From contig JAOTOM010005139.1 in the NCBI GenBank assembly GCA_034440615.1, positions 782,501-846,500 on the forward strand: a stretch of 64,000 nt of DNA, in the 5' to 3' direction. The position numbers and the translations under genes were made by a program. Positions within the stretch are counted from its first letter, which is position 1. The number at the start of each line of letters is the position of its first letter. Below, in pieces: positions 2,462 to 59,228 of this stretch. The DNA is from Ashinkailepas kermadecensis. Taxonomy: Eukaryota > Arthropoda > Thecostraca > Neolepadidae. The notes under the pieces are model-generated. The model searched no databases, was not told the DNA's origin, and saw only the letters and a program-made list of their open reading frames with translations.

Positions 2462-2474
2462 AATACGAAATAAC

Positions 2475-2533
2475 TAGTTGGTTAGTTGGGCTTTGGGCGC
2501 ATCAACTGCATTGGTTATACAGTGCCCATAACG
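2475..2533 (-). mobile_element. 59-bp micro-retroposon with 13-bp TSD
   Basis: The 13-bp direct repeat AATACGAAATAAC lies at 2462-2474 and 2534-2546, bounding a 59-bp insert. Read on the minus strand the insert begins near ATGGGCACTGTATAACC, can fold into an outer GGGC/GCCC stem with an inner AT-rich stem, and ends in CCCAACTAACC. It has the same architecture as the inserts at 2720, 19834, 51784, 52785 and 58886. Confidence 0.8.
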
Positions 2534-2719
2534 AATACGAAATAACCAATATGGTGTTAAAACGGCGACATTCTGATTAATAGTGGGGGTAAACCAAAAC
2601 CATTTTTGGGATGCGTCCTTTGACGTACATTTCCCATTTCCCATCACACGAAGAACAAACGTCGAAGCAGTTTCCGGTGACGGCTTTCAAATCCCGCCGA
2701 CCAACAGCACAACCAAATA

Positions 2720-2775
2720 TTTGTTTGTTTGTAAATTTTGGCTTAAGGGCGCCTGAAGTGGTTATCTAGTGGCCA
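2720..2775 (-). mobile_element. 56-bp micro-retroposon with 12-bp TSD
   Basis: The perfect 12-bp repeat CACAACCAAATA lies at 2708-2719 and 2776-2787 and brackets a 56-bp insert. On the minus strand it starts TGGCCACTAGATAACC, carries the GGCGCCCTTAAGCC block and ends in ACAAACAAACAAA. It belongs to the same family as the insert at 2475-2533. Confidence 0.8.
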
Positions 2776-2859
2776 CACAACCAAATACAACCAAACGCTA
2801 AACTTCGACAATGCGTACACCTGGGGAAAAACTGATCCGACACCCACGCAAACTACCCG

Positions 2860-3725
2860 TGACTAACTGGGATGGGATGGGTCCGAGCGGGCCGGTGCTC
2901 GGGCGGCGGCTCCACACCGGAGACCGCCCGATCACCATCGGTGACGCTGAGGTCACCTGGCCGCGACAGCCGGTCACAGAACCGGGCCAGCTGGGCCCGC
3001 CGCCGGAGCCAGGCTGCCGGCGGCCGACCGGCCGGCCGGCGCGACGGAGCCGGCCCGACGATCGCGGGGGCCGCCGCCGCCGCCGACCAGGGGACAGACA
3101 GGCCAAACAGGACGTGGCCACCGCCCAGCCGTTTCCGTCGCACCTGGCGTGCGGCAGCGGCCTCGGCGCGCGCGCTCGCACGCCGAGCCGCCGCCGCGGA
3201 CGGGCGCGCGAATAAAAAAGCTCGCCGTGAAAAAGCGGCACAAAAAGCTTCGACGGGCCGGTCGTCGGCTGCGGTGTGTCGGCATCGATCTGCCGCCGTG
3301 GCACCGGCGATCGGTTGTCGTTCCGTTGATCTGCCGGACGTTCCCGTTGCACGGCCGTCAATCGGCGGCACGTGCATTCTCCGTCGTTGCTTTGGCGCGG
3401 TTTTCGTGCGATCAATAGGCATGCACCGGCCCGCCGAACGGCTTCACCGGAGTCGCTCCACCGCCGAGTCCGACAATTTCCTTCCTCGTCACTTCGCGCC
3501 GCCCTTTCAAGGACTTCGGACAAGGTGCAATACGCAGAGACACAACCATTCAAGTCCAGGTCTCCCCAGCGGAAGGCCCCGTTCAAAAGATCCGGCCATC
3601 TGCTCCGTCTGCCAGGTGCCGTCGGCGAACGCGGCACAGGCCGCTCCGCGGCCATCTTGTCGCCGCTCCCGCCCGGTGTTAGGCGAATTTCCGCGCGAAG
3701 TACGAGGCCCATCGATAGCTTAAAA
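2860..3725. other. CpG-rich segment, possible CpG island
   Basis: Dense in CpG, unlike the AT-richer flanks. A YY1-like CAAGATGGC motif occurs on the minus strand around 3651-3662. Long overlapping frames on both strands match no family and are explained by stop-poor GC-rich composition. It could be a promoter island of an unseen gene or the 5' region of a mobile element. Confidence 0.4.
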
Positions 3726-5178
3726 GACGGTATATGCCACTTTATAAGTACCTGGTAGCTTATTGCTATTGATAAATCAAGATTTGATTACTTACATGAC
3801 GCTTGAGGTTAGAAAACAGCTCACGAAAAACACGGCGTCAGGCACTACGCGGAACACGGGGGCCCACGCCGAGCGCTGAACGACGATGCATTTCACAGGC
3901 AGCAGCTGGCTTTGACTCACCTTTATGGAGGAATTCGAAGATTCAGTGCTTCAAAGAATTACTTGTGACAAGAACACACCATTACATTGCACCTAGATCA
4001 CGGACAAATCGTCCTACCGCACGCGCACACCACAAACGCGATCTCACCCGTCAGCAAACATGGCGGCCGCCGCGCACCTCTCGGCTCGGCCGCCAGTCGG
4101 TAGGGGCCGCTCTCTCCGCCAGGCGGGATAGCCAGCAGCGACCTCTATGAAAGGAAAACTAGTGAATCAGTACAGTATGTGGCACTTGACAGCTAAATTA
4201 GACAAGAAATTCATTAACAGCCGAAGGAAAGGATAAAAATAAATTTTTCAATCAACTGCAGCTAATAAATCCGCTCTCTAAGGAGGAATACTAAGCATAA
4301 ACGTGGGTAGTTTTTGCCATCGCGAAAGTTCTTTCAACCTTCATGTTGAGTGTTGTGATCTAACAAGCCTTGTGATTGGTGAACGGTATTTGGTTACAAA
4401 GGTGTCATTGGTTTATTTCCTGTCAACTGCTTGAAGCCAAACGTGTATTGATTTCAGGCGTTTAGACTGTTGGTTGTTGGCGGAAAACATGGGGAACTAA
4501 CTACCTAAACAGCGGTTGGGAGATATTGAGCAATGGAGAAACTCAACGCCCAATCGCTGCCCAGGAACCCGACGGGATCCCCCGACCATCCACAGCGCTT
4601 GGCGTGTCAAGGATGCTATTTGGATGCAACGGTCTGCAAGTGAGTAGCGATGAGGAATGCGAGGCGCAGCGGCGAGCCCAGGGTGTGACAGAGGGAGACC
4701 CATGAAGTTAAATTTATGGGCTTGCAATGCAGTGTTTTATGGTTTTCGATAGCTGTGCAACCAACTAATGAGGAAAGGGAAGATTGCCCGAACCATGTGC
4801 GGAATGCTTTGAGATCTATTGACCATCCATAAAAGCCAAGCTGTTCCTCGGGTTTTGCAATTTGTGACGGGCATGAGAAGTGTGCCTCATGGGACCAGGG
4901 GCGGATCCGGAGAAAGCGGTTAGAGTATAGGTGGAGTTCTCGATACCCTGTAGGGCTGAAGCCCCTCCAATCTTCGCTTGACCCCCACCTCCACAATAAC
5001 TTCTGATTTTAGTAAGGTTCCCCATGGGATGGCCCCAGAGTCGTAGGAACGTGGCTGAAAAAAAAACTCCACCATTGATGACAAGAACTGAAAAGCACGA
5101 TCGTCGATGAAAAAGACTGAAAAGCAACTATCTTAATCCATATGTCTAAAATCGCGAAATTGGCAGCCCAAGACCCAC
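3726..5178. other. Intergenic; small CpG patch and one TIR-like end
   Basis: A CpG-rich patch around 4010-4130 includes the YY1-type motif AACATGGCGGC at 4057-4067. A lone hAT-MITE-like left end, CAGGGGCGGATCCGG, begins near 4892, but no clean partner end was found. Nothing else was recognised. Confidence 0.35.
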
Positions 5179-5241
5179 TGGCACGTGGGGCACTAATGGG
5201 GCACGTGGGGAACTAATGGGGCACGTGGGGCACTAATGGGG
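5179..5241. repeat. 20-bp tandem repeat, 3 copies
   Basis: Three units of CACGTGGGG followed by (C/A)ACTAATGGGG, each containing a CACGTG palindrome. Confidence 0.85.
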
Positions 5242-5518
5242 TTACGCGTGTCGACAGTCCCCCAATGCTTTTTAACTCATTAGCATTGGCAGTGTCAACC
5301 GCGGATTTGTTTTTCAATGCAGTGCCGGTAGCTTACAGCAATATTGCGCGTGGACATTCTAGAAGCATCCACGGAGCTTATTCCAAGCGACCTGGCTTAC
5401 GAACGGATAATTGCAGGTATACATTTGGGTAGCTTCCATATGAGCCCTCTTATAAAATGAAACCATGTGCATTGTGTAGGAACCTGACTGGCTGACCCAG
5501 AAGACAACGAAGGGAGCA

Positions 5519-5600
5519 TGGCGCAGCCAGGATTTTCCTAAGGGGGTTGCCAGGGGCGCAACTGGAGTAATGCGACGGAGAGTCAAATATATTTTCATGG
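5519..5600 (+). mobile_element. MITE left-end fragment (TGGCGCAGCCAGGATTTTC)
   Basis: The TGGCGCAGCCAGGATTTTC terminus matches the ends of the MITEs at 10354-10541, 10586-10745 and 42041-42226. No right end or TSD was found, so this appears to be a truncated copy. Confidence 0.5.
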
Positions 5601-6381
5601 CCAGGGCCACATCAAATATTTAAAAGTCCTCGATTTTCGATTGTTATTTTTTCGCTGGCCCCCTTTTCAAGATTTTTCCTGTGGGACTTCTCTCTCCTGT
5701 TATCGGCCCCTGATTATAGGTTCCCATTGGTGGCTCCACTAGCCGATACCTGTGGGGAACGAGAACATGGGTGTAGGAACTAGGAATTTATTGGTATGGG
5801 AGAAATAGATAAAGGGCCCATTGTTCAAATTCATGCTCATTGATCTCACGTTTAAAGAGAAATGGTTGTTATGGATTATGTGGTATGTTAGCGATGGAGC
5901 AAATAAGTGGAAGCATCCATACCTACCCTATTGGTTCCTGCACTCATTGATGACATGCATTTTCGCTCGATCTTTTCATGCATCGCCATAGGTGTGATAT
6001 TAAGTATGATTAGATGTGCAGGGTAAGCTTCTCCCACGTTCCAAACAGCGGAGCCGTCCATGACGATTTCTACTAACAAGAACGGAACCTTGGGTTGATG
6101 CGGCATGGATTTGAGTTTTGCTCACCGATACCAATAACCCCCACCACCTCCAAAAAAAAAACACAATCGCATTGCACATTTACCATGAGCACCAATGAAA
6201 TATGGGCTGTGCCGGAGCGCAGCCTGGTCGCGAACTACCCACGTGACCTTCTGTCATAAATCCGACGGACAGCCAAAGATCTATATTGTCAGCAGTCGCG
6301 TAATATCTTTTTATCATGCAGAGAGTGATCAAAGGTAGTCACGTTTTAGTCTATATCCTCCTCCGTTACGTACCATGCACG
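5601..6381. other. No recognisable feature
   Basis: AT-rich sequence with short frames. A short A-run lies near 6150. No gene, RNA or repeat partner was identified in the window. Confidence 0.4.
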
Positions 6382-6389
6382 TGTGTCAC

Positions 6390-7076
6390 CACTAGCGGAT
6401 CCAGGGAGGGGCCATTCCGGCAATGCCCCCCCCCCTCCGAAGCGCTTAAAAGGGGGGCCATAGTGTCTTTCCCCCCGAAACCAACAGAAGTAAACTAAAA
6501 TTGGAGATTCTTTCATTCGGACGCTATTTTTTAACCTTGGCAAAGGTTACTGCATTTTAATTTAGTTTACTTGTTTAATTTAGTTTTAGTAAAGTATTTT
6601 TTATAATTGTTTGGAGGGCAATATAGTATCATAGTAGATTCTGACACACATCGATGGTTCCATGCTGCTCAAGTTCTGCTTACAGCAAGAGTTGGCAAAA
6701 TCGGATCCACCAGTATGTACACGTGCACGAACGTTGACGTGGTACAAGACGTTGAACGTGAACGTGAACGTTTTGGTAAACAAGAACAAAAGTCCGGTAA
6801 CTCAGAAACGGTGCAGGCAAGCTATGGCCCCTACACAGTAAATTATGTTTCCATTAATTATTATTTTAAAAAATGGGCCCCTTTGCCAAATAGTTGTCGA
6901 AATCCGGTGCTTTTAACCAAACATAGTGGGAGAATGGGCACCCTTCATATCCGTTCCACCCCTCCCCTGATGCAATTCCTAGGTACGGCACTGGGGGAGG
7001 GGGAGGGGGGAGGGGGCTGACGCCGAAAACCGAAAGTTTCCCCCCACCCCAAACCGGTGGGCTAGATCCGCCAGTG
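6390..7076. mobile_element. Non-autonomous hAT-like element, 687 bp, perfect 8-bp TSD
   Basis: The left terminus CACTAGCGGATCCAG (6390) and right terminus CTAGATCCGCCAGTG (ending 7076) are inverted repeats. The element is bracketed by a perfect 8-bp direct repeat TGTGTCAC at 6382-6389 and 7077-7084. An 8-bp TSD with a CAGTG-type terminus fits the hAT superfamily. No transposase frame is present. Its right half (about 6850-6995) resembles 19520-19665. Confidence 0.85.
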
Positions 7077-7084
7077 TGTGTCAC

Positions 7085-7436
7085 TTGTATGCTTCACTGC
7101 ACTGGTATACTTTTGGGGTTCTCAGCAGCAAGACAATGGCTACCGCAATGATTCATGGTAGTGATTGTAAACGCGTACGCCTCGTTCCAAATAAGGTATT
7201 GCCTGTCATGTACGGCAGCAGCAGCGACTTCTCTTGGCCAAGATACCGCATTAAAGTGATTCATTTCTCGGCCAGGGTAGGTATACAGTGATGGAAAGCA
7301 AAGATGTTCACTTAGTGATCCCCAAAATGTTTAAATGGCTTGAGCTATTTAATGCTATTCTAAAGACTGTTCGATGTGGATATAATGTGCAATGCCATTC
7401 CGTGGTTATCTTGCATACATCGGATAGGCAAACGTT
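7085..7436. other. No recognisable feature
   Basis: Short unique-looking spacer between the hAT-like element and the 41-bp array. Confidence 0.4.
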
Positions 7437-7437
7437 T

Positions 7438-9411
7438 TTATTGTCGTACAGATGAACACTGAGTGGCAAAGAGGGCGCGTATTGTCGTACAGCTGAACAC
7501 TGAGTGGCAAAGAGGGCGGGTATTGTCGTACAGCTGAACACTGGGTGGCAAAGAGGGTGGGTATTGTTGTACAGCTGAACACTGAGTGGCAAAGAGGGCG
7601 GGTATTGTTGCACAGCTGAACACTGAGTGGCAAAGAGGGCGGGTATTGTTGTACAGCTGAACACTGAGTGGCAAAGAGGGCGGGTATTGTTGTACAGCTG
7701 AACACTGAGCGGCAAAGAGAGCGAGTATTGTCGTACAGCTGAACACTGAGTGGCAAAGAGGGCGGGTATGGTTGTTCAGCTGAACACTGAGTGGCAAAGA
7801 GGGCGGATATTCACCAGAAGGTTGTTGTACAGCTGAACACTGCTTGGCAAAGAGGGCGGGTATTGTTGTACAGCTGAACACTGAGTGGCAAAGAGGGCGG
7901 GTATTTTTGTACAGCTGAACACTGAGTGGCAAAGAGGGCGGGTATTCACCAGAAGGTTGTTGTACAGCTGAACACTGAGTGGCAAAGAGGGCATGTATTG
8001 TTGTACAGCTGAACACTGAGTGGCAAAGAGGGCGGGTATTATTGTACAGCTGAACACTGAGTGGCAAAGAGGGCGGGTATTGTTGTACAGCTGAACACTG
8101 AGTGACAAAGAAGGCGGGTATTGTCGTACAGCTGAACACTGAGTGACAAAGAGGGCGGATATTGTCGTACAGCTGAACACGGAGTAGCAAAGAGGGCGGG
8201 TTTTTGAGTGAACACTGAGTGGAAAGAGGGCGGGTATTGTTGTACAGCTGAACACTGAGTGGCAAAGAGGGCGGATATTGTCGTACAGCAAAGAGGGCGG
8301 GTATTGTTGTACAGCTGAACACTGAGTGGCAAAGAGGGCGGGTATTGTTGTACAGCTGAACACTGAGAGGCAAAGAGGGCGGATATTGTCGTACAGCTGA
8401 ACACTGAGTAGCAAAGAGGGCGGATATTGTCGTACAGCTGAACACTGAGTGACAAAGAGGGCGGATATTGTGTACACTGAACACTGAGTGGCAAAGAGGG
8501 CGGGTATTGTTGTACAGCTGAACACTGAGTGGCAAAGAGGGCGGGTATTGTTGTACAGCTGAACACTGAGTGGCAAAGAAGGCAGGTATTGTCGTACAGC
8601 TGAACACTGAGTGACAAAGAGGGCGGATATTGTCGTACAGCTGAACACTGAGTAGCAAAGAGGGCGGGTATTGTTGTACAGCTGAACACTGAGTGGCAAA
8701 GAGGGCGGGTATTGTTGTACAGCTGAACACTGAGTGGCAAAGAGGGCGGGATATTGTTGTACAGCTGAACACTGAGTGGCAAAGAGGGCGGATATTGTTG
8801 TACAGCTGAACACTGAGTGGCAAAGAGGGCGGGTATTGTTGTACAGCTGAACACTGAGTGACAAAGAGGGCGGATATTGTCGTACAGCTGAACACTGAGT
8901 GGCAAAGAGGGCGGGTATTGTTGTACAGCTGAACACTGAGTGGCAAAGAGGGCGGGTATTGTTGTACAGCTGAACACTGAGTGGCAAAGAGGGCGGATAT
9001 TGTTGTACAGCTGAACACTGAGTGAAAAGGGGGGGGGATTTTTGGTAAAAAAAAAGAGTGGCAAAGAGGGCGGGTATTGTCGTACAGCTAACACTGAGTG
9101 AAAAGAGGGCAGAGAGGGGGGTATTGTTGTACAGGAACATGAGTGCAAAGAGGGCGGATATTGTTGTACAGCTGAACACTGAGTGGCAAAGAGGGCGGAT
9201 ATTGTTGTACAGCTGAACACTGAGTGGCAAAGAGGGCGGGTATTGTTGTACAGCTGAACACTGAGTGACAAAGAGGGCGGGTATTGTTGTACAGCTGAAC
9301 ACTGAGTGGCAAAGAGGGCGGGTATTGTTGTACAGCTGAACACTGAGTGGCAAAGAGGGCGGATATTGTTGTACAGCTGAACACTGAGTAGCAAAGAGGG
9401 CGGATATTCAC
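7438..9411. repeat. 41-bp minisatellite, about 48 copies
   Basis: Units of about 41 bp centred on GTACAGCTGAACACTGAGTGG and AAAGAGGGCGGGTATTG. On the minus strand the unit has no stop in any of the three frames, so three overlapping frames of more than 500 codons arise from one 41-residue periodicity. No protein family is recognised and no coding call is made. Units at 7808 and 7947 carry ATTCACCAGAAGG, which is also the right-flank junction near 9408. Stretches around 8205-8225 and 9020-9150 are damaged, including long G and A runs. Confidence 0.95.
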
Positions 9412-10541: not shown

Positions 10542-10585
10542 TTGCAGCCATTCATAACCCTTCCTTCTCCACTTAAATACGATCG

Positions 10586-10745: not shown

Positions 10746-10753
10746 CGCTCGTA

Positions 10754-19819: not shown

Positions 19820-19833
19820 TTACAGCCTGCATG

Positions 19834-19870
19834 CGATGCGCCCCTAAACCACAATAACTAACTAACTAAC
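19834..19870 (+). mobile_element. 37-bp micro-retroposon with 14-bp TSD
   Basis: The perfect 14-bp repeat TTACAGCCTGCATG lies at 19820-19833 and 19871-19884. The insert between is only 37 bp: CGATGCGCCCCTAAACCAC, then an AATAACTAACTAACTAAC tail. The TSD and AAC-rich tail are hallmarks of target-primed reverse transcription. Confidence 0.85.
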
Positions 19871-19884
19871 TTACAGCCTGCATG

Positions 19885-21515: not shown

Positions 21516-22741
21516 GGATCATACATCGTGGTAAAGCCTGTCGAGGAGTCCGTCTCCGTTCGTCGTGTCAACGTTTTCTGGCCAACCAAACAACTCCTCG
21601 TCATTTGCTCCTTAGCCAATCTTGACATTGAAGCCCCAGCCAACGGAACCCTCGTCATCAAAACCCAATCCCGAGCCCAGACCAGAACCCTCCTCCGCAC
21701 CACTACATTTTGTGGGAAATCAGTCACAGTCACTCTACATTCCAACCGTAACACTACCAAGGGCACCATCTTCGCGCCGGAGCTCCGCTTCATGACTGAA
21801 GCAGACATCCAAGTGGAGCTCAGGCCGGAGGGGTGACCCACGTCCGCCGCATCACATCCTTCACAGATGGCCAGAAACGTGACACGAGTCTCCTAGTCCT
21901 TACCTTCAACTCTACAACTCTTCCCAAGACGCTCCTCGCCGGCTATCTTCGATACCCAGTCCGTGTCTTTATCCCCAATCTTCTCCGCTGTTTTAACTGT
22001 CAGCGCTTCGGCCATGGCAGTAAAACATGCCGCCAACCAGCCCGCTGCCCAAAGTGCGGCGAACCACCTCATCCAGAATCCACCTGCTCCAAACCTGCCC
22101 ACTGCCTCAACTGCAACACATCCGATCACCTGACCACATCACCCCTCTGCCCAGTTTGGCGCAAGGAGAAGGAGGTCTGCGCTGTCAAGGCCACGACCGG
22201 GGTGTCATACCCCCAGGCCCGACGGTCTGTCGAAGCCACCTCCCCGTCAACAAAAACTTATGCCCAGGCGGCCACCGTTGCTCCCCCCACACGTCGCGTC
22301 AACACTACTTCTGCCTCGATTCAAACAGACATGATTCCCGGTTTAGCTCCACTAAAAAAACTTACTCCACTGACCACACCGACACAAACCACCCTGGCTC
22401 CCAACACACAGACCACTCCGGCTCCCAACAAACGAACCACTCCAGGGAGGAGTGACAGGCCCCGCAGTCACTCCGCTGCGGGAGCAAATTCTCGTTCCCC
22501 ATCAGCGGGCCGCCGATCGAGCCCTGCATGTCCAGCGCCGGCCGGCACCCACGTGACCCGACCAACTTCCAGCCGGCGGACATCCCCCGCGGCAGTGACC
22601 GGTCGCCGTGACCTTGCCAAGGTCACCGGCCGGCCGGACGGCTCTGGCGGGTCCACCGCTGCCGTCGGCACCCAACCCACATGTCCGCCGGAATTACAAT
22701 GCTGGCTCCGACACGCACCGAAAGGTGCCGACAAATATTAA
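21516..22741 (+). pseudogene. LINE ORF1 (gag-like RNA-binding protein), broken
   Basis: This is the nucleic-acid-binding ORF1 of an I-group LINE, whose product normally coats the element RNA. The N-terminal part reads in one frame to about 21833, where a single indel moves the rest to another frame. The second part carries two CX2CX4HX4C zinc knuckles (CFNC...H...C and CPKC...H...C) and a third, looser CX2CX4HX6C, spanning about 21985-22150, followed by a Ser/Thr/Pro-rich tail. The N-terminus is missing because of 5' truncation. It lies just upstream of ORF2, as expected for the group. Confidence 0.85.
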
Positions 22742-22750
22742 TTTTCACAA

Positions 22751-25700
22751 ATGTCGATATTTCTACAATGGAACTGCCGCAGCTTGATTTCCAAATGGGC
22801 AGAAATGAAAGCCATTTTTAGCATCTTAACTCCGATTCTCATCGCACTTCAAGAAACCTGGTTTTTGCCTACCGATACATATAATTTCAATCTTTTCAAT
22901 TATTCGCTGTACCGCCACGACGAGGTCCCTGGACCACACCGCAGTGGCGGTACCACACTTTACATAAACAATGATTAGACACATGCACAAATTACACTCA
23001 ATTCACCATTACAAGCCGTAGCTTGTACTTTGCGTTTTCGTGGTAGGAACATAGATGTATGTTCATGATATATTCCACCATCTACAGACAACACAAACAT
23101 TTTGACAGAATTAGAAAACCTCATAGCGCAATTCAAAAACCATTTCATTTTACTTGGCGATTTTAACGCCCATAGCCCAGCGTGGGATAGAACACGCACA
23201 TTTCCAGACACTCGCGGACGCATAGTTGAACACATCCTAGACAGACACAATTTAGTATTACTCAACACCGGTGAGCCAACATTTTTCCACCTCGGTCACA
23301 ATACAGAAACTGCCATTGATTTAACAATTTGTTCTCCAGCCCTGACCAACGATTTTGATTGGACAATAGACACAGACATTCATGATAGCGATCACTACCC
23401 CATTAAATTACTACCGACCATTTCAACACCTGTCGATACCACACCAAGTTTTATCCCTCGCTGGAAACTTTTGAAGGCCGACTGGAACTTTCGTCGTTGC
23501 AGTACAACCCGGACATTTCTCCAGTACAAAACATTCATTGAATTAACAACACACTTTTACAAGCAGCGTCTGCAACAATTCCACTCACAAAACCCTTTAC
23601 AAAACGAACGCCAGTGCCTTGGTGGTGTCCCGAAATTTCACGTGCCATCGCGGTAAGAAAAAGAGCATTTATAAAATATTTACGTCACCCCGACCAACAA
23701 AATTTAATCAACCGGAACCATGAACGTGCGAGGACCCGCCGCATCATTCGTGAAGCTAGGCGCCGTTCATGGTCTTTATATTTACAGCAACTTACATTTC
23801 AAACACCTTTAAGCCAAATATGGGGATTAATCCGCCGTTTGAGAGGAAGATCCCCATTTAGATCACTACCGGCTCTCAAACTTCACAACATCACCATTAC
23901 CAAACCGCAAGCAATAGTAAACACCATAGCAGATACCATTGCCCACCATAGCTCGGACGAAAACTACAGACCGGGCTTCATAGAAAATGCACAACACACT
24001 TTTTACCTTGATCTCGCACAATTTGATTCTGACAACTCAGAAATATATAATACTCCTTTTCAAATTTCAGAACTTGAGACAGGCATTTCCTCCGCCGGCA
24101 ATACTTCAGTAGGGCCTGACAACTTACATTATTCTTTTGTCAGACATTTACCGGATCACACCAAACATTGCATTTTGCACACATTTAATACACTATGGAC
24201 AACTCATACCTTCCCCGAAACTTGGAAAGAATCTTTCATTATACCCATCCCAAAACCTGGCAAGGACCATAGTAACCCCACTAATTTTCGACCCATTGCA
24301 CTCACCAGTTGTTTAGGAAAACTTTTTGAACGTATAGTTATAAAAAAGACTGACCTGGCACCTGGATACAAATTCCCTTCTATCTCCCTTTCAATGTGGT
24401 TTTCGACGAGGACGCAGCACCATAGATCATCTTATTCGGTTAGAGACTGACATCCGTCAAGGCTATAAAAAAAACATGAACACACTATCGCAGTATTTTT
24501 AGACATAAGCAAAGCGTACGATATGGTTTTCAATCCCGCATTACTTTTTAAACTTCAACAACTCGGTATAAAAGGACATTTAGCACATTATTTAGTAGGT
24601 TTTTTTTATCTGGTTCTCGTCGATTCCACATCAGGTGCCGGTCAGCCATTTCCGATGCACATTGTCTTCAGAACGGCCTATCACAGGGAAGTTGTCTTTC
24701 ACCAGTATTATTTAACATTATCATTAATGATCTTTTCGATGACATGCCTACCAATATATCATTTTCACTATTTGCAGACGACAGCACAATTTGGTGCTCC
24801 GGGAAAAATTATGAACATTGTTTAATTCGCTTACAAAACACACTGGACAGAATACAAGAATGGTCCCTGAAGTATGGTTTCATTTTTTCGGCCGCAAAAT
24901 CTGCAACATTGATATTTAGTAAATCAACACCCTGCCCAAACCCAGATACACCGCTTCACCTCGGAAACAATGATATACGTGTTGTAAATTCGTTGAAATT
25001 TCTTGGTATTATTTTTCACCGTAGGCTTTCAATGCATAAACACATCAAACACATCCAGAACAAATGTGTTCACCGACTGAATTTATTTCGATGCATTACT
25101 TCTTCATCACTTGGAGCCGACCGTCATACACTTCTACTACTTTACAAATCTTTAGTTCTACCCATAATTGAATATGGATCCGTAGTATATACCGGTCCTA
25201 GCACATCTTCCTTACACATTTTAGACACCATTCAAAATACATTTCTCCGATCGCACTCGGTGCAATGACTACTTCACCCATCATTTCTTTAGAAGCCGAA
25301 TCGGGAATTTCTCCACTAGCTCTCCGTAGAATGCAGCAAACACCTAGGTACGCCTCCAAAATTAAATTTCACGCAAACCGCCCCACACACGCTTCATTAC
25401 AAATTCTCCCAAATTTACATCATGATTATTTAGGTCCAGCCGAAAAACGAACTGGTCTCACTATAGCTTCTTGAGTCAAAACATTTTCTGAACAACTTCA
25501 TTTCACTATTCCACGCATTACTTCTTTTTCTCCACCAACTACACCACCGTGGCAGATGGCCGAACGGCACATTTTTTATCTGACCACCACCCCAAAATCA
25601 CAACTTTGTCCAGAATATGCAAAACAAAAATTCCACCAATTTCATTCTCGTTATCGTCATGTTCTTTTTGTTTTTACCGACGGATCAAAAGACGCCAACC

Positions 25701-26525
25701 TCACTGGAAATGCCATTGTTTCGGATACACACACAAAACAGCATCGCTTGCCAAACGGAACCTCCATTTTCATCGCAGAATTGCACGCCATTCTCATTGC
25801 TCTTCGCTATGTCCGCAACCGTTCAATCTGTCACCCCATGCGCAGTGTTGTTGTTTGTTCCGACTCCAAATCTGTTCTTCAATCACTTTCTTCACTTTCT
25901 TTTTCGCACCATTGCCATATCTCCATTTACGATACCCTTGAAATACTTTATCTGATGGGCGTAAAGGTCCGTTTCCTGTGGGTGCCCAGCCACTGCGGCA
26001 TCCCAGGAAACGAAGAAGCCGACAAATTAGCCAAAGCATCATTACACCTCCAAAACATCACAGAAATTCCACCACATTTTGAAGGCATTAAATCATCAAT
26101 ACAACAGAGCATTCGACATTTTTGGAACCAAAACTGGACACAAAACACAAACCATACACAATTACGTTTCATCAAAACTGCCGTCGATACCTGGATCACA
26201 CCATATAAAAAACCGACACGGAAACAAAGTCCTATCACGTTCACCCATCGGCCATACCTTTCTTACCCATCGATATATATACACGGCTTCACCTCGACCT
26301 TCATGCCCATCATACAACACAAATCTTACAGTTCCACATGTTCTCCTTCATTGTCAGAAGTACCAAGGCCCACGAAAAACACTGACGGATTTTTGCCATA
26401 CACACAAAATTCCTTTTACTCTGCCTACACTATTAAGGGATGATCATCCCATTTCATCAAACTACTTTTCAATTTTCTCCGCAATACAAACCTGTTCCAA
26501 GATTTATAAACTTAATTATTTAGCA
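22751..26525 (+). pseudogene. LINE ORF2 (endonuclease-RT-RNase H polyprotein), broken
   Basis: ORF2 normally nicks the target and reverse-transcribes the element RNA. The endonuclease domain starts near 22751 (QWNCRSL, QETW) and includes GDFNAH at about 23156 and SDHYP near 23390. In-frame stops lie at 22976 and 23066. RT carries FRPIALTSCLGKLFERI near 24290 and the catalytic FADDS at 24771, but is split by frameshifts near 23620, 24345, 24460, 24610 and 25262. A further stop is at 25472. RNase H keeps its acidic residues (TDGS about 25679, AELHA about 25778, CSDSK about 25862, NEEAD about 26010). A last shift near 26150 precedes a C-terminal CX2C...HX4C-like motif. Confidence 0.88.
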
Positions 26526-26550: not shown

Positions 26551-26600
26551 ATGGCACGAAATGGCCTGAGGAGGCCGAAGTGCCCAACCCAACAAGACTC
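26551..26600 (+). other. LINE 3'-terminal double stem-loop
   Basis: GGCAC pairs with GTGCC, and an inner GGCC pairs with GGCC, followed by CAACCCAACAAG. A similar stem-in-stem plus (C)CCAAA/AAC tail closes the tRNA SINEs and the micro-insertions in this window. Such 3' structures are known recognition sites for reverse transcriptases of some LINEs; that role is inferred here. Confidence 0.55.
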
Positions 26601-42772: not shown

Positions 42773-42877
42773 ATGTCAAGCAGCTGCTCTGTATTGGCCT
42801 TGAAAATAAGCTGTGCACGAGGACTCTTTACACCGAGGCTTGCAGCCCTGGTCTCAAACGGTCGACAGCTCTCTAAG
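42773..42877 (+). other. In-frame 35-codon N-terminal extension of GPD1
   Basis: An upstream ATG at 42773, directly preceded by an in-frame TGA (42770-42772), opens 35 codons that run into the canonical GPD1 Met. The segment has five Arg/Lys and no Asp or Glu and is rich in Ser, Ala and Leu, the composition of a mitochondrial presequence. The context of this ATG is weak (T at -3), so it may simply be 5' UTR. Confidence 0.4.
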
Positions 42878-43930
42878 ATGGGGGACGCGAAGCGTGTTAC
42901 CGTTGTGGGATCGGGGAATTGGGGTTCTGCGATCTGCAAGATCATCGGCACTAATGTTTCCAAGTTTAGTCAGTTTGAGAATGAGGTGAAAATGTGGGTG
43001 TTTGAGGAGATGGTTGACGGTAAGAAGCTAACCGAAATCATCAATACAACCCACGTGAATGTAAAATATCTCCCAAAGCACAAGCTTCCAGAGAATGTAG
43101 TTGCTGTACCGGATTTGGTTGAGGCTGCAAAGGATGCAGACATTTTGGTATTTGTAATCCCACACCAGTTTCTGGTCAGAACATTGAAGACTTTGAAGGG
43201 TAAGATCAAGCCATCTGCCATTGGTCTGTCTTTGATTAAAGGGTTTGACCTGAAGGAAGGAGGTGGCATTGAGCTGCTTTCCCACACCATACGTGATGTC
43301 CTGCAGATTGAAGTTAGTGTCCTGATGGGTGCAAATCTTGCTCCTGAAGTTGCTGATGAGAAGTTCTGTGAAACAACCATTGGCTGTAAAAACCCCACCC
43401 ACAAGGATATGCTGAAAGCTCTCATCCAGACCTCATACTTCCGGGTTATGGTTGTGGAAGATGCCAATGCTGTTGAACTGTGTGGTGCACTGAAAAACAT
43501 TGTAGCTTGTGGTGCAGGGTTTATTGATGGCCTTGGCCATGGTGACAACACCAAGGCTGCAATCATCCGACTTGGCCTGATGGAAATGATCAAGTTCGGA
43601 GAGGTGTTCTACCCTGGTTCTCTGCTCTCCACCTTCTTTGAGAGCTGTGGTGTGGCCGATCTCATCACCACCTGCTATGGTGGTCGCAATCGTCGCATCT
43701 CCGAGGCATTTGTGACAACAGGCAAGACCATAGAGGAGCTGGAGCGTGAGATGCTCAATGGCCAGTGTGCCCAGGGCCCAGAGACGGCCCGTGAGGTGTA
43801 CATCATGCTGGAGCGCAATGGCAGCCTGGACCAGTTCCCTCTGTTTGTGGCCATACACCGGATATGCGTCGGCAAGATCCCGCCAATGGCCATGATCGAC
43901 TGCATCAGGGAACACCCAGAGCACCTGTGA
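42878..43930 (+). CDS. GPD1: Cytosolic NAD-dependent glycerol-3-phosphate dehydrogenase, intronless
   Basis: The 350-residue protein interconverts dihydroxyacetone phosphate and sn-glycerol-3-phosphate with NADH, linking glycolysis to lipid synthesis and the glycerophosphate shuttle in the cytosol. The N-terminal Rossmann domain carries GSGNWG at residues 11-16. The family's active-site residues are in place: Lys121 (SLIKG), Lys206 (ALKN), Asp261 and Thr265 (ADLITT), Arg270. The C-terminus is the typical HPEHL. Length matches animal GPD1 (about 349). The start at 42878 was chosen for its AAGATGG context and homologous N-terminus; an upstream in-frame ATG is at 42773. The frame is uninterrupted, whereas animal GPD1 genes usually have several introns, so a retrocopy is likely. 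It has no stops or shifts, so it appears functional. It is the only convincing host protein gene here. Confidence 0.95.
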
Positions 43931-48820: not shown

Positions 48821-48825
48821 CGAGT

Positions 48826-51155: not shown

Positions 51156-51168
51156 CAGGGTCTGATGT

Positions 51169-51329
51169 CTGGGGACGAGTGGTCTAGGGGTAAGATGCTC
51201 GTCTCACAATCGAAAGGTTGTGGGTTCGAGTCTCATCTGTCGCTACTCTTCGCCCGCGACCAATCGGCGTGAGAGATTGGCGACGCTACATGACTCAACG
51301 GTCGACGTGTCGTAAAACCAATAACCAAC
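51169..51329 (+). mobile_element. tRNA-Val-derived SINE (161 bp) with 13-bp TSD
   Basis: CAGGGTCTGATGT flanks the element perfectly at 51156-51168 and 51330-51342. The tRNA-like head has an A-box-like TGGTCTAGGGGTAAGATGC, an anticodon loop CTCACAA (anticodon CAC, Val) and B-box GGGTTCGAGTC, but the acceptor arm does not pair. The body ends in a double stem (ACAT/GTGT around GAC/GTC) and a TAAAACCAATAACCAAC tail. A sister copy is at 59229-59391. Confidence 0.9.
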
Positions 51330-51342
51330 CAGGGTCTGATGT

Positions 51343-51766: not shown

Positions 51767-51783
51767 GTTTCGATACCACCGTT

Positions 51784-51820
51784 GTTGTTGTTATTTGGGT
51801 TTAAGGGCGCTTCGACCAAA
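51784..51820 (-). mobile_element. 37-bp micro-retroposon with 17-bp TSD
   Basis: GTTTCGATACCACCGTT occurs perfectly at 51767-51783 and 51821-51837. The 37 bp between read, on the minus strand, TTTGGTCGAAGCGCCCTTAA then CCCAAATAACAAC. This is one of the clearest members of the family. Confidence 0.9.
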
Positions 51821-51837
51821 GTTTCGATACCACCGTT

Positions 51838-52480: not shown

Positions 52481-52784
52481 AATACAAATTAAGCACGGAA
52501 AAGTCATATTTCATGTCCAGTACTTTTGCAGCAGAATATCATTATCGGACACACCTGGTTCTATGTTCATAAGACATCGGAAATACTTTCTCATTTTCTC
52601 ATTACAGATTTATTCTATCTCAGTATCACTCACTCATTTATTCTATCATATCTCATCACACATTACACATTAAATTTCTCATTACATAGGGAAGGCTTTT
52701 TCACGGTGCAGGTGGAGGAAGCTGACCTTTCACACGGATGGGATTCTTCACTCCTGGCTATGTGCATACTTCATGCCGCTCTGT

Positions 52785-52844
52785 TGGCCGCGAATGATCA
52801 ACTCTGGTCGAAGCGCCCTAAAGCCCAAATAACTAACTAACGAA
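52785..52844 (+). mobile_element. 60-bp micro-retroposon, imperfect 13-bp TSD
   Basis: CATGCCGCTCTGT (52772-52784) and CATGCCGGTCCGT (52845-52857) match at 11 of 13. The insert begins TGGCCGCGAATGATCAAC, has GGTCGAAGCGCCCTAAAG and ends in AAATAACTAACTAACGAA. It resembles the LINE 3' hairpin most closely. Confidence 0.65.
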
Positions 52845-52857
52845 CATGCCGGTCCGT

Positions 52858-53445
52858 GCTCGATGGTCGCACGGCACGAGTTATACTACAAGTATTGGTA
52901 CCGACACAGGTGGTGCGATATGACTTCTTCAAAGAGTTGAATTTCTTTTTTCAACACAAGAAACCCCTGCTACGAAGCTTTGGATATTACTGCTACTAAG
53001 AAAAACGCTCAACATATTCACGGACGCATGCAAGCATTTTTTTAAGGTGACACGAGGCCAAATACTTCCAAAAACGGAAATCGCATGGAACTTTTTTCCG
53101 GTAGAAGCTTTAGTAGTGTAGAATAAACAATATACATGTGTATTTTTTTCGGTGGGTAGTTTACCGTCAACAAAGTCACGTGGTATAGTGTAGGTATAGT
53201 GGAATAGTGTGTCGTATGAATTCTTGCAATAAGTGTCTCATAGAAGTGGAGTCTGTGGAAGTCTGCAGTAGAAGTTAAGTCGGCTGGAAGTTTTTGGAGT
53301 AGAAGTTGCGTCGTGAAAGGTAATGTCATGTAGTATAATGTAGTAGATGGTAATGCCGCTTTGCAGTAGAAATCGTATCGCATGGAGGCGAAGCGTGTGG
53401 AAGCTTCTGCAGTAGAAGTAACGCCTCGTAGAAGTCCGTAGTAGC
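52858..53445. other. No gene; GTAGAAGT-rich patch at about 53250-53445
   Basis: The right half has irregular AGTAGAAGT repeats. No domain was recognised. Confidence 0.4.
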
Positions 53446-54134: not shown

Positions 54135-54142
54135 GTAGCAAC

Positions 54143-54994
54143 TTCTTTTTGAGCAGGGGCGGATCCAGTAATTTTGGTCAGGGAAACGTGTCTGGAGTGG
54201 CGCCATTCCTCGTGCTGGGGGTGGGGGGGCATCAGCTGCAAGAACACTCGTTGAGGTGGCGGCGGCGTCACTCGAGCGTCCTGAGGGGGGAGGGGCGATC
54301 CACACCTGCATACAGGTGCCGCCAGTTTGTCCCTGGACCCGCCGGCGGTCTGGGGCAGGTGTTGCAGCAGCTATCAGTTGCAGGTCTCCCGTGGATATCC
54401 AATATGTTGCGCCACCATTTCTGTCAGCGTTGCGCCGAGTATCCCATTACGCAGTGTTCTGTGGTGGTCTTGTGATGGACGCGTTTGACCTTGAATCGTA
54501 CGTTTTATTGTTGGAATGTGTCGGGGTATTGGGCGTGCGACCCAGTGGCCCAGAAGCGCAGCCGAGATGGTCCCAGAGGAAAACCAACGTTAAAGCAGGA
54601 ATGTGTTCGCTCCGGGAGCCTCCAGTAGAAGAAAGAGAAAAAACTACCTCATGAAGACAATCCCCTTGCACGCCCCATCCCCCACATCTGTGGATGCGTG
54701 ACTGGATTCGCAATCAGCCCGGCCGAGGATCCGGCGACACTACGTGACGCAGCATTCCAATGCGTGGCAATGTAGTCCAAGGTTCCGGTGTGCGTGTTGC
54801 GCTGTCAGTCTCGTCAGGTGGCGCCACGTCACCAGCTTCTCAAGGCGAGAGACAGAGCTGACTCGGCAGTGCCCCCGGCGCCACGGCCGTCGCCTGATGC
54901 GGCAGTCACGTGACCGTGCCGGCCGTCTGGCGCCGCGGTCACGTGACCAGCCGGCTGTGGCGCTCCTGGCGCGGTGCCACGGTCGACGCAGACT
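54143..54994. other. No gene; lone TIR-like end at about 54155
   Basis: CAGGGGCGGATCCAGTAAT near 54155 is a hAT-MITE-type left end without a visible partner. Frames here match no known family. Confidence 0.4.
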
Positions 54995-55685
54995 CAACAG
55001 ACGCCGGCGGGCTGGACGTCTGTCACCGTGCGAGCCTGACACCACGATCGGGAACAGTGCTGGCGGGCTTGACGTCTGTCACCGTGCCGTGCGAGCCTGA
55101 CACCACGATCGGGAACAGTGCCGGCGGGCTGGACGTCTGTCTCCGTGCGAGCCTGACACCACGATCGGGAACAGTGCCGGCGGGCTGGACGTCTGTCACC
55201 GTGCCGTGCGAGCCTGACACCACGATCGGGAACAGTGCTGGCGGGCTTGACGTCTGTCACCGTGCCGTGCGAGCCTGACACCACGATCGGGAACAGTGCT
55301 GGCGGGCTTGACGTCTGTCACCGTGCCGTGCGAGCCTGACACCACGATCGGGAACAGTGCCGGCGGGCTGGACGTCTGTCACCGTGCCGTGCGAGCCTGA
55401 CACCACGATCGGGAACAGTGCCGGCGGGCTGGACGTCTGTCTCCGTGCGAGCCTGACACCACGATCGGGAACAGTGCCGGCGGGCTTGACGTCTGTCACC
55501 GTGCGAGCCTGACACCACGATCGGGAACAGTGCTGGCGGGCTTGACGTCTGTCACCGTGCCGTGCGAGCCTGACACCACGATCGGGAACAGTGCCGGCGG
55601 GCTGGACGTCTGTCACCGTGCGAGCCTGACACCACGATCGGCAACAGTGGCGGCGGCGGCGGCGGCGACGGCGACGGCGACGGCG
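54995..55685. repeat. 56/61-bp minisatellite, about 11 copies, ending in (GGCGAC)n
   Basis: Units contain GAGCCTGACACCACGATCGG and GGCGGGCTGGACGTCTGTC; a 5-bp CGTGC block is present or absent, giving 61- and 56-bp forms. A GGC/GAC microsatellite follows at about 55648-55685. Confidence 0.93.
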
Positions 55686-56080
55686 TGTTTCGGTGTCACG
55701 GGTGGGGGGGCCGCTACCTCCCGCCCCCTGTTGGGTCCACCTGTTGGGGAAAACTTTCGACGCCCCCCCCCCCCTGTTGGATGTGTTTCTCGGACGACAA
55801 TGGGTTTGCAGACATTTTCGAACTTCATTCATCTTTTGGCAGGTGTGGATGCATTCACGGAGAGGGTAATGTTCTGGATGACCAACATCCAGGACAAAGC
55901 CATGTTTCCAGCCCTGGGTGAGGGATTCGGCTGCACGACATTCGCACACGACCTACGTAGTTTGACGCCACTGACACTCCTCGGACAACAGCCGTACGTG
56001 GCCGTGCACGTGATACGTAGCACGCGATGCCGGTCTCCTCTTTCCTGTTCGTGAGAAAAGTAAAAAAAGACTCGGTTGTT
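55686..56080. other. No recognisable gene
   Basis: Contains C- and G-homopolymer runs (55705, 55765) and unique-looking sequence. No domain was recognised. Confidence 0.4.
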
Positions 56081-56240
56081 GATTTCTGAAAATTATTGGG
56101 GGGGGGGGGGGAGCAAAATGCATGAAGGCAATGGGCAGGCCCAAATGGATTGGGGGCACACTTCATAAGGTCCCATGTTAAAAGTAGAAATTGGTGGGGG
56201 TGGGCAAAGAACATTGAGGGAACACTTGCCCCCTCAAAAG
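56081..56240 (+). repeat. Dispersed repeat, uninterrupted copy of the foldback target
   Basis: AATGCATGAAGGCAATGGGC, GGATTGGGGGCACA, GGTCCCATGTTAAAAG, GAAATTGGTGGG and ACACTTGCCCCCTC follow the order of 26756-26857 plus 28412-28475, but without the 1.55-kb insertion. Confidence 0.7.
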
Positions 56241-56372
56241 TACATTATAAAACAAGACCCTGTCCAAGAATGAAGGTTTCGTTGCGCCAAACCCTCGCTG
56301 GCGGAACCACTACCGCTGGTCGTGGGATTTCTGGTGACGAGGCCCTCCACGTGCTCTGGCGCAGCTTAAAAA

Positions 56373-56465
56373 GCAACTCATTACGAGGACCGATTTCCCG
56401 CCTACAACACACCTGCGACTCATTCCGAGGACCGATTTCCCGCCTACAACACACCTGCGACTCAT
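56373..56465. repeat. 44-bp direct duplication
   Basis: CGAGGACCGATTTCCCGCCT and the following CACCTGCGACTCAT occur twice in tandem with almost no change. Confidence 0.9.
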
Positions 56466-57307
56466 CAGACTCAGAGTACACCACACACTGGCAACTTCGC
56501 GCGTTTCCGGCTCTTGACGAGCGCGCGTGACTGACGCGAGCTTCAAGCATCAGACTATCAGACGTGCATCGTATTCGTGCATCTGCTCGGGGTATGCCGA
56601 GCGGTAGTTCATTACTGAAAGGCCATACCTGTTTTGAATTGAATTATTATGCACTGGCCGCTTTAATGCAAGTTACAGTATGTATTTAGAAGTTAAACAT
56701 GGAGTTAAATCCAATTCTTCTGCAACAAAGTAGACATCCCAACTGCGATGGGACATGCGTGAACTGACTCCAACTCTAGCTCTTTTGAGCGGAGAAGAGG
56801 GGCTCACATAGGCGTCGCCGCGGGGGCGGGGGATGGTGGTGGTGGTGATTGTTTTTGCGACGTGACGACTGCTTTTGGATCAGCTGGCGTCGTCAGTCTG
56901 CCGTCCCGATTGGTCGAGGGCCAAGAGTGGCGACAGGTGTGACGCTAACTACAATCTATCGATCGGGAGACGGCCACTCTATCCCCGACCACTCGCCCCT
57001 CGCCACGTGGGAGGGGGCACACTAGGGGAAGCCCCCCTACCTCAAAACAATGTGACCTAACCCACCCGTCTTTCCGGTCAGATCCTTACACCTCGTCTCG
57101 TGGCGGGAGGGGGAGGGCATTATAAGCCCCCTATAATCTCCTAGCTACTCCCCAACACCACTCACCAACACAGTCGGCCACTCACCAACCCCAATTTTCC
57201 GTCAGAGACCACTTTACAGGTTTTGAGAGTCTATAGTTCACCCCCCTGAGCGGGGGGAGGGGGTGTACGGACGCGGCATTACCGCACCGTGCCAATGGTG
57301 AGCCGAC
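56466..57307. other. No recognisable gene
   Basis: Unique-looking, partly GC-rich sequence without domains. Confidence 0.4.
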
Positions 57308-57540
57308 GTGGCGGCGGTGAGTGCGTCTCAGGCGGTCAGCCGCACCCACCGGCCACCGCGGTCCGTCCGTCCGTCAGGGGGCCACCTGGCCGCCGTGTCA
57401 ACAAGCCAGCCGATATCGGAGGCGGTGAGTGCGGCTCAGGCGGTCAGCCGCACCCACCGGCCACCCGGTCAGTCGGTCCGTCCGTCCGTCAGGGGGCCAC
57501 CTGGCCGCCGTGTCAACAAGCCAGCCGATATCGGAGTCGC
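57308..57540. repeat. 108-bp direct duplication
   Basis: GTGAGTGCG(T/G)CTCAGGCGG starts at 57317 and 57425. Both copies end in AAGCCAGCCGATATCGGAG. Confidence 0.9.
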
Positions 57541-57727
57541 GGCCAGGGTGGAGTGGGGCACACTCTGACCTCTGTCCGTCCTATTACAGTCATGGCTAAG
57601 GGCGTGCCCGGGGGAAGGGAGGAGGCTGTGTCCGTGTCGCCCCATGACAGCTCTGCAGCCATCCTGGGGTTGGCGTTCCCGAGTTGGCAGGCTTTCGAGA
57701 TGAGCCGGGTGTAGCTGAGCGCAACTT

Positions 57728-58150
57728 CATGGTACATTTTCGGAGATAGCCTCCTTGCGCCACTGGTCTCCCAGAGCCCCATGGTACATTTTCGGAGATA
57801 GCCTCCTTGCGCCACTGGTCTCCCAGAGCCCCATGGTACATTTTCTGAGATAGCCTCCTTGCGCCACTGGTCTCCCAGAGCCCCATGGTACATTTTCGGA
57901 GATAGCCTCCTTGCGCCACTGGTCTCCCAGAGCCCCATGGTACATTTTCTGAGTAGCTTCCTTGCGCCACTGGTCTCCCAGAGCCCCATGGTACATTTTC
58001 TGAGATAGCCTCCTTGCGCCACTGGTCTCCCAGAGCCCCATGGTACATTTTCGGAGATAGCCTCCTTGCGCCACTGGTCTCCCAGAGCCCCATGGTACAT
58101 TTTCTGAGATAGCTTCCTTGCGCCACTGGTCCACCAGAGCCCCATGGGAT
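57728..58150. repeat. 52-bp minisatellite, 8 copies
   Basis: Near-identical units of CATGGTACATTTTC(G/T)GAGAT, GCCTCCTTGCGCCACTGG and TCTCCCAGAGCCC, starting at 57728 and 57780 and so on. One unit lacks AT (57955). Confidence 0.97.
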
Positions 58151-58367
58151 ATTTTTGACTTGAGCATCTATAACGTCGAAGCTATTGACATGTACCGATG
58201 TCATGTATTGACATGACATGTGAAGCCATTGATGTACCGAGCTCGAATGCCATGAAATAGCAGAAAGAAGATTGGAAAACACCATGGAAATATAATAATT
58301 ATGTTATGATTTGTTAACAGTTCAAGCATGTAGTGGATAGTGGATTTCACAGTACAGGTGCCGACGG
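58151..58367. other. No recognisable feature
   Basis: Short AT-rich spacer containing repeated TTGACATG blocks. Confidence 0.35.
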
Positions 58368-58535
58368 AGTAGTGTATGGTGAGCCGCCATCGCCGTATCG
58401 AGACAAAGTAGTGTATGGTGAGTCGCCATCGCCGTATCGAGACAAAGTAGTGTATGGTGAGCCGCCATCGCCGTATCGAGACAGAGTAGGGTATCACCAT
58501 ACACCATACAGCCGCCATCGCCATATCGAGGCAGA
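58368..58535. repeat. 39-bp tandem repeat, about 4 copies
   Basis: GTGTATGGTGAG(C/T)CGCCATC and GCCGTATCGAGACA repeat at 39 bp. The last unit includes an inverted GGTAT...CACCATACACC junction near 58490-58510. Confidence 0.9.
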
Positions 58536-58871
58536 GTAGCATATGGTGTGACAGCTGTTGGCTGTGATTTATGCAAATCTGGCTCATTATCACAGGCGTG
58601 CCGAAGCGGTGTGGGGGGGGGGCACTAGGGAGGTACGCATCGTTCCCATAGCTGAATATAGTCTCACAACTTAATAGCTCGTTGAAAATTTGTCTTGCGG
58701 TAGAGATTAATCGCAGTGTTTTTGTTACGCGCAATATTTTTCCAAGAATCGCCCTGTGGATAACATCACTACCACCCGCCCCGCACCCCCGTTGGTGAAA
58801 TAATTCTTACTACTTTCCCCTGCCTTCCTTGCAAGACAAACTGCGTTGCATCGTATCCTTGGGAATCTATT
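58536..58871. other. No recognisable feature
   Basis: Unique-looking spacer with a G9 run near 58612. Confidence 0.35.
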
Positions 58872-58885
58872 CTCGCCTCCCTCTA

Positions 58886-58941
58886 ATGGGCGTCAAATGA
58901 CCCCGTAGTCGGCGCGCCCTTAAACACAAATAATCAATCAA
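58886..58941 (+). mobile_element. 56-bp micro-retroposon with 14-bp TSD
   Basis: CTCGCCTCCCTCTA (58872-58885) and CTCGCCTCCGTCTA (58942-58955) differ at one position. The insert starts ATGGGCGTCAAATGACC, pairs GGGCG with CGCCC and GAC with GTC, and ends CCTTAAACACAAATAATCAA. Confidence 0.85.
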
Positions 58942-59228
58942 CTCGCCTCCGTCTACAAGAGCCCTGAGTGCGTCCCGACTGGCCGCAAAGTCTGGACCGA
59001 ACAGTCGGCTAACGGTGAACTGCGTCGCGGCCGGTGGTCCGGGCCGCTGTTTTGTCAGGGAGTGGCGGAGATTACACTTTCTCAAACAAACGCCAAGCCA
59101 GCTTTTGCCGTACGGTGAATGTCTCGCACGCGGCCGGTTTTCTGCGAGCTCGGATGGCTTGTGGTCCGCTCGTCCGTCCGGCGGCCGCGATCTCCTGGGC
59201 TCACATCAAGCCAACCCGTTGGAGTGTC

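Follow-up and report, generated by a model that had tools for sequence, protein, structure and literature searches.

Six inserts of only 37-60 bp lie in a 64,000-nt stretch of the Ashinkailepas kermadecensis genome (GCA_034440615.1, contig JAOTOM010005139.1, 782,501-846,500, forward strand; hereafter the window), and they raise the question of what RNA was copied to make them and why the copies stop where they do. On rechecking, all six were located together with the 12-17 bp TSDs described in the original prediction, in both orientations and with the TSD quality claimed. Insert 1 (2475..2533, minus strand), a micro copy of the 56-60 bp class, consists of the family-1 hairpin and tail between copies of a perfect 13-mer (tail side 2462..2474, 5′ side 2534..2546; 13/13). 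Insert 2 (2720..2775, minus strand) carries a diverged hairpin and tail, scores 33.5 bits with the covariance model and is bounded by a perfect 12-mer (tail side 2708..2719, 5′ side 2776..2787; 12/12). Two inserts belong to the 37-bp class: insert 3 (19834..19870, plus strand), which begins within the hairpin and holds only the 3′ arm and tail, lies between perfect 14-mers (5′ side 19820..19833, tail side 19871..19884; 14/14), and the family-3-like insert 4 (51784..51820, minus strand), with its 5′ end at the inner stem, between perfect 17-mers (tail side 51767..51783, 5′ side 51821..51837; 17/17). Insert 5 (52785..52844, plus strand), a family-3 hairpin and tail with the C variant, begins 1 nt 5′ of the stem and has TSDs matching at 11/13 positions (5′ side 52772..52784, tail side 52845..52857). 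Finally, the hairpin and tail of insert 6 (58886..58941, plus strand) are flanked by TSDs matching at 13/14 positions (5′ side 58872..58885, tail side 58942..58955); similar hairpins occur at L013:8717-, a micro copy, and at L018:7371+, a LINE end. Each TSD pair is given on the strand of its insert.

A regular expression for the common core, run over the window, returned exactly these six inserts and nothing else. The covariance model, whose training set contained four of the six, returned the same inserts plus two copies of a tRNA-headed SINE; the two 37-bp inserts received weak scores (E 0.02-0.03). The density of micro-inserts is patchy: four random 10-kb regions (40 kb read) contained zero copies.

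The six inserts are the terminal 37-60 bp of non-LTR retrotransposons, that is, a stem-loop followed by a repeat tail, and they derive from several LINE families, not from one. Identical ends close off LINEs found elsewhere in the genome. The family-1 end belongs to elements encoding endonuclease, RT and RNase H; L021, a parent LINE, gave Pfam matches for AP endonuclease, RT and RNase H. Of 12 further hairpin contexts tested, 11 had an RT-RNase H match ending 62-137 nt 5′ of the hairpin. In an exact census of one 56-mer, 29 places comprised 21 micro and 8 LINE copies; one of the micro copies is a duplicated locus and two were assigned by eye. Among 40 family-1 places, 25 were called TSD-bounded micro copies (insert 1 included) and 15 LINE 3′ ends. 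These upstream matches showed 43-59% amino acid identity to family 1; upstream of the hairpin at L009:3657 no RT match was found. For family 3, LINE bodies were seen over just ~60-150 nt upstream of the hairpin. The parent LINEs may belong with the I / Nimb group, whose members carry endonuclease, RT and RNase H, as does the parent element here. An interrupted LINE broadly grouped with these parent LINEs also lies in the window (21800..26443, plus strand; RT 24552-25268, RNase H 25475-26443). A 3′ stem-loop of this LINE, recognised by eye only (26553..26584, plus strand; GGCAC/GTGCC with inner GGCC/GGCC), is followed by CAACCCAACAA. A related hairpin (51279-51329) belongs to a tRNA-Val-headed SINE (51169..51329, plus strand; TSDs 51156-51168 and 51330-51342), a second copy of which lies at 59229..59391 (plus strand; TSDs 59219-59228 and 59392-59401).

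When the 3′ stem-loop sequences were compared, 85.8% of cells were paired, against 32-44% when the sequences were slid. Of 22 sequences, 13 have G-C and 7 have A-U at one inner stem pair, both sides having changed in those 7, and the innermost pair was unpaired in 14/22; two of five covariation measures did not rise above shuffled letters (119/500 and 499/500 shuffles as high). A conserved 3′ stem-loop with compensatory change, as in stringent-type LINE 3′ ends, is present, and the parent LINEs look like stringent-type LINEs. The two length classes are two end points on one hairpin: the 56-60-bp inserts end at its 5′ base and the 37-bp inserts inside it, keeping only the 3′ half of the stem-loop plus the tail. 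Both the discrete length classes and the 3′ hairpin as controlling feature, as originally proposed, withstood the analysis. The repeat tail and the variable TSDs of 10-19 bp do not fit a MITE or DNA transposon, which would show terminal inverted repeats and a TSD of fixed length.

Retroposition with a separate TSD for each copy held for all six inserts in the window and, in two families with many relatives, for 57 of the 66 non-LINE copies, while pairings of unrelated flanks gave a TSD in 20 of 781 cases. Under a harsher null, random positions in the tandem-repeat-rich window reached a score of at least 8 at 17/99 and at least 10 at 11/99. In the two families TSD length peaked at 13-15 bp. The 5′ ends were concentrated as well: 26/34 family-1 copies begin 8-9 nt before the stem and 20/23 family-3 copies 0-3 nt before it. 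Two family-3 copies, L113 and L114, begin 8 nt out, so the family-3 end point is not single. Among the remaining copies, 7/10 TSD calls fell 0-2 nt before the stem; the flanks of L009:5404, L011 and L019 are repeated, and these three are not counted. The smooth truncation spectrum named beforehand as the refuting result was sought in two families and was absent.

We consider it about an even bet that the micro-inserts are single-event, target-primed copies of the 3′ ends of related LINEs, made from a template RNA that ended at the hairpin. The LINE's own protein would bind the stem-loop, prime from the nicked target and copy the tail and hairpin; the cDNA would end at the hairpin since the template itself ends there, being a ~60-nt 3′ fragment cleaved at, or eroded down to, the hairpin held by the protein. 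On such a template the enzyme would run off, and the end would be joined like that of a full-length copy. Hairpin plus tail alone appears to be a sufficient template in vivo for several LINE families.

A possible though less probable explanation is that RT starts on full-length LINE RNA and drops off, after the hairpin in the 56-60 bp inserts or at the inner stem in the 37 bp ones, for instance with its RNA-binding part not yet released from the hairpin, or with the nascent cDNA folding back on itself. Both length classes fall on landmarks of one hairpin and family 3 has two end points, as such a stop would produce; in particular, the 37-bp class looks as if the enzyme had stopped at the inner stem, a point for drop-off and against a short template. 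However, families 1 and 3 have similar hairpins but different end points, 8-9 nt out in family 1 and mostly 0-3 nt in family 3, and none of the seven listed tRNA-headed SINE hairpins is a micro copy despite belonging to the same hairpin class. The junctions speak on both sides. Among 33 scored in family 1, 13 were direct, 12 had non-LINE nucleotides and 8 showed 1-3 nt of microhomology; the extra nucleotide was a single A in 8/12 (two of these eight being one duplicated locus), and 2/12 were substitutions within the flank. Direct or single-A junctions (21/33) speak against drop-off. Microhomology of 1-3 nt to the LINE was present at 12 of the 25 family-3 junctions scored, in line with drop-off. 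In a report on Nimb, 82% of full-length inserts were joined directly and 95% of truncated inserts via microhomology or extra nucleotides (PMC4245944). Measured against those figures, the family-1 proportion of direct junctions (13/33) is only intermediate between the two patterns, and the family-3 microhomology resembles that of truncated inserts; both count against a short template (PMC4245944). On balance, we infer that a short template is somewhat more likely than enzyme drop-off.

As to how a template ending at the hairpin might arise, one tentative reading, to which we give rather less than even chances, is that LINE protein stays bound to the 3′ hairpin as the remaining RNA decays from its 5′ side, and that the protected footprint of ~60 nt is then reverse-transcribed at the nick. 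Each micro-insert would then be a trace, left in the genome, of RNA decaying up to the LINE protein bound to it, and we would know of no smaller natural substrate for target-primed reverse transcription.

It is improbable that the inserts represent a micro-SINE, a discrete family of ~60-nt RNA genes amplifying itself by means of LINE enzymes. Such a family would account for 5′ ends common to dozens of insertions and for the excess of micro over LINE copies (21 to 8) in the single exact-match census. An apparent set of micro-only diagnostic substitutions (p = 0.0008 and 0.0004) was retracted: the hits had been selected by score, which biased the test, and a direct pattern search found both variants in LINE copies, which made up 8 of 20 newly fetched places for the T variant and 14 of 18 places for the C variant preceded by GTTAT. 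Thus the originally suggested micro-SINE family was not borne out, the two candidate changes defining no lineage apart from the LINE. Since variants track LINE subfamilies, a separate micro-SINE gene is unnecessary. The inserts lack a Pol III head (tRNA, 7SL or 5S), being too short to hold one, and inspection by eye revealed no promoter or Pol III box. With Rfam at its own thresholds the inserts were unmatched, the only match in the window being the separate tRNA-Val SINE; at E up to 5 there was no match in the end of L021, in the micro copy L057, or in L061, L066 and L093. A ribozyme or tRNA-like processing signal was unsupported on inspection by eye.

Ordinary random 5′ truncation, with the inserts as the short end of a smooth LINE spectrum noticed by chance, is very improbable: although TSD-like matches selected by hand lie 480, 1648 and 2641 nt upstream, shared LINE bodies break near 700, 770 and 1810 nt and the L030 body breaks ~64 nt 5′ of the hairpin, two families peak sharply at the hairpin in place of scattered end points, and, among the copies outside these two families, the sole TSD calls lying 8 to 98 nt upstream (L011:8196, L019:1513 and L009:5404) all have repeated flanks, the latter two each with a second TSD match near the hairpin base. 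An extended helix pairing the tail with bases before the stem, present in the predicted family-1 fold, was also considered as the cause of the family-1 end point; it was dropped because the family-3 LINE end forms one too, yet family-3 copies end elsewhere.

Taken as copies of a template ending at the hairpin, or of one abandoned there, the micro-inserts serve as a natural experiment on how small a template target-primed reverse transcription can use, and their 5′ ends mark the exact positions where a short LINE RNA, or a stop by the enzyme, could be sought. Inserts this small may lie under the length cut-off of repeat finders and hence escape annotation. Our literature search, which covered mainly open-access papers, found no report of hairpin-only retroposons so short.

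RIME, SIDER and NARTc are non-autonomous elements, hundreds of bases long, that derive from LINE ends and depend on LINE enzymes for their movement, and R2/R1 hybrids are reportedly also non-autonomous retroposons derived from LINE ends. By comparison with RIME, SIDER and NARTc, the micro-inserts measure only 37-60 bp. UnaL2/UnaSINE1, ZfL2-1/2 and SART1 likewise carry short tail repeats after a 3′ stem-loop (PMC5135761, PMC4176376). Such stringent-type LINE/SINE pairs share a 3′ stem-loop, as the tRNA-Val-headed SINE here carries a hairpin of the same class; unlike those pairs, many copies here are stem-loop and tail alone (PMC5135761, PMC4176376). The 5′-truncated L1, L2 and Nimb copies likewise have a LINE 3′ end, a TSD and a missing 5′ part, whereas in the micro-inserts the break falls at one or two hairpin positions and is not scattered (PMC4245944).

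The six inserts of the window (2475-2533, 2720-2775, 19834-19870, 51784-51820, 52785-52844 and 58886-58941), described in the original prediction as bounded by target site duplications (TSDs), were borne out on re-check of the window sequence in their existence, their coordinates and the duplications described for each. A simple expression for the shared core matched these six inserts and nothing else in the window, and a covariance model trained on an alignment of 22 hairpins that includes four of the window inserts returned at E up to 0.05 the six inserts plus two tRNA-Val-headed SINE copies of 161 bp (51169-51329) and 163 bp (59229-59391) that carry a hairpin of the same class. At another locus of the genome, L017, a tRNA-Val-headed SINE and a family-1 micro copy (a TSD-bounded hairpin and repeat tail resembling insert 1) share one target, where TATTGTGACGA(TT) is now present three times.

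In the hairpin, a six-pair outer stem is separated by an internal loop from an inner stem with three to five pairs, and a short A/C-rich spacer leads on to the repeat tail. Across the 22 sequences, pairing was found in 85.8% of cells, compared with 32-44% when one side was slid; one inner pair was G-C in 13 sequences and A-U in 7, and the fourth inner pair was unpaired in 14. Three measures were higher than in every one of 500 letter shuffles (the percentage paired, the covariation score and the number of cells with changes on both sides), while the numbers of doubly changed pairs and of further pair types were not (119 and 499 of the 500 shuffles, respectively, were as high). Since the sequences are relatives and the structure was proposed from those same sequences, the case for the structure rests on the compensatory changes and on the control with one side slid.

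A search of the genome (908 Mb, 4,689 contigs) with insert 1 and its flanks gave at least 42 matches, that is, the window, 39 strong and 2 weak places (40 of 563 candidates scored). All 39 strong places were examined: in 15 the hairpin terminates a long element (LINE copies), and in 24, plus the window, a TSD was called close before the hairpin, with L045 and L047 being a single duplicated locus and L040 atypical. The long element encodes endonuclease, reverse transcriptase (RT) and RNase H, as seen in 10-kb loci with Pfam applied to L021 only, and its copies break off at many lengths. TSD-like matches, chosen by hand, were noted 480 nt upstream in L025 and, for members of other families, at distances of 1648 and 2641 nt. 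Of 12 further hairpin contexts tested, 11 have an RT-RNase H match with 43-59% identity to family 1 that ends 62-137 nt before the hairpin, L009:3657 being the sole exception; at L027:6578 the nearest such match comprised 42 residues only. The window has a LINE of its own, whose RT and RNase H lie within 24552-26443 and whose end is a comparable stem-loop, recognised by eye (26553-26584).

Several loci showed complex arrangements. In L018 (near 4260-4320), L024 (near 4217-4275) and L030 (near 253-320), a family-1 LINE with a broken 5′ end directly adjoins the tail of one LINE family, and two of the breaks lie about 8 nt from each other; template jumping or insertion into a tail may account for this. 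In L110, a short inverted segment lies within a family-1 LINE end, immediately upstream of the hairpin, resembling the outcome of a switch of the cDNA to its own strand. Similar micro copies at L011:8196 and L011:8563 have identical flanks within a tandem array and are probably a single insertion duplicated afterwards.

The elements look clustered: many, though not all, of 20 hit regions held several copies, and none was present in four random 10-kb regions (L048-L051, 40 kb in total). The window also contains an uninterrupted 385-codon glycerol-3-phosphate dehydrogenase frame (42773-43930), which may be a retrocopy or a gene without introns. Its closest matches are unnamed proteins, with 81-84% identity for three of the top six, and arthropods come next, including decapods and an isopod at 67-73%; this places the host among the arthropods, probably among crustaceans. 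Long repetitive arrays at 7.4-9.6, 12.5-15, 36.8-39.3 and 60.3-63.5 kb give open reading frames, in some cases on both strands.

The 5′ ends of the copies fell into few classes. In a survey of the window and 200 kb around hits (73 matches with E of 0.05 or less, including the 20 query hits), the 5′ ends marked by convincing TSDs lay near the hairpin base, within the hairpin, or about 99-110 nt upstream; copies of this third kind are full-length tRNA-headed SINEs; other TSD scores, arising from repeats or shared element sequence, were excluded by eye. Of 60 family-1 copies that differ in context, 23 stand in a LINE and 37 do not; a TSD ended within 30 nt of the stem in 34 of the 37, and 26 of these 34 started 8 or 9 nt before it. 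Family 3, to which insert 5 belongs, gave 41 copies (12 LINE, 29 non-LINE), the LINE bodies being viewed over about 60-150 nt upstream; 23 of the 29 had a near-stem TSD, with 20 starting 0-3 nt before the stem. Such TSDs occurred in 0 of 23 and 0 of 12 LINE copies, which, because this class is defined by LINE sequence directly upstream, means that breaks between that stretch and 30 nt are absent, and nothing more. Randomly paired unrelated flanks scored a TSD in 20 of 781 cases. In the 37-bp class the 5′ end falls at the inner stem's 3′ arm; two members lie in the window and three outside (L009:9812, L026:7594 and L037:190, the last two with ambiguous starts).

TSD lengths peaked at 13-15 bp. 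Family-1 junctions were direct in 13 cases, carried non-LINE nucleotides in 12 (eight single A, two of them from one duplicated locus, a lone T, a stretch of five T and two flank substitutions) and showed microhomology in 8. Those of family 3 numbered 9, 4 (one an artefact of the array in L011) and 12, respectively. At the 5′ junction of L097, five extra T, possibly untemplated, separate TSD and micro copy. Judged from sequence, the sharp ends, the TSD peak and the single extra nucleotide look like run-off from a short RNA, in which the enzyme would reach the end of its template; we give this reading roughly even chances. That the enzyme instead stops at the hairpin seems somewhat less probable, a tentative alternative closer to what is seen in the 37-bp class, and in family 3 in the microhomologies and the second end point.

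An independent, self-propagating micro-SINE was not supported, as both variants that had seemed confined to micro copies, which would have implied one, are present in LINE copies. In the initial sets, a family-1 tail variant had been seen in about half of the micro copies and 0 of 15 LINE copies, and a family-3 loop variant in 16 of 27 and 0 of 12. A genome-wide exact search located the former in at least 29 places, nine seen before and 20 new, the new ones being 8 LINE and 12 micro copies (two by eye); the latter occurred 18 times in LINE-like context, 14 of them LINE ends of related subfamilies. The variants thus follow LINE subfamilies. The 29-place census (8 LINE and 21 micro copies, with one duplicated locus) is the sole count without score ranking and the one in which the micro:LINE proportion is usable, since copies of families 1 and 3 were otherwise collected by their similarity. 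The simplest view of these sequences is that each LINE subfamily would generate its own micro copies.

In known systems, two papers describe stringent-type LINE proteins as binding a 3′ stem-loop essential for movement (PMC4176376; PMC5135761). Another study reports that full-length inserts tend toward direct joining and truncated ones toward microhomology or extra nucleotides, with Nimb joined directly in 82% of full-length cases and not directly in 95% of truncated ones (PMC4245944).
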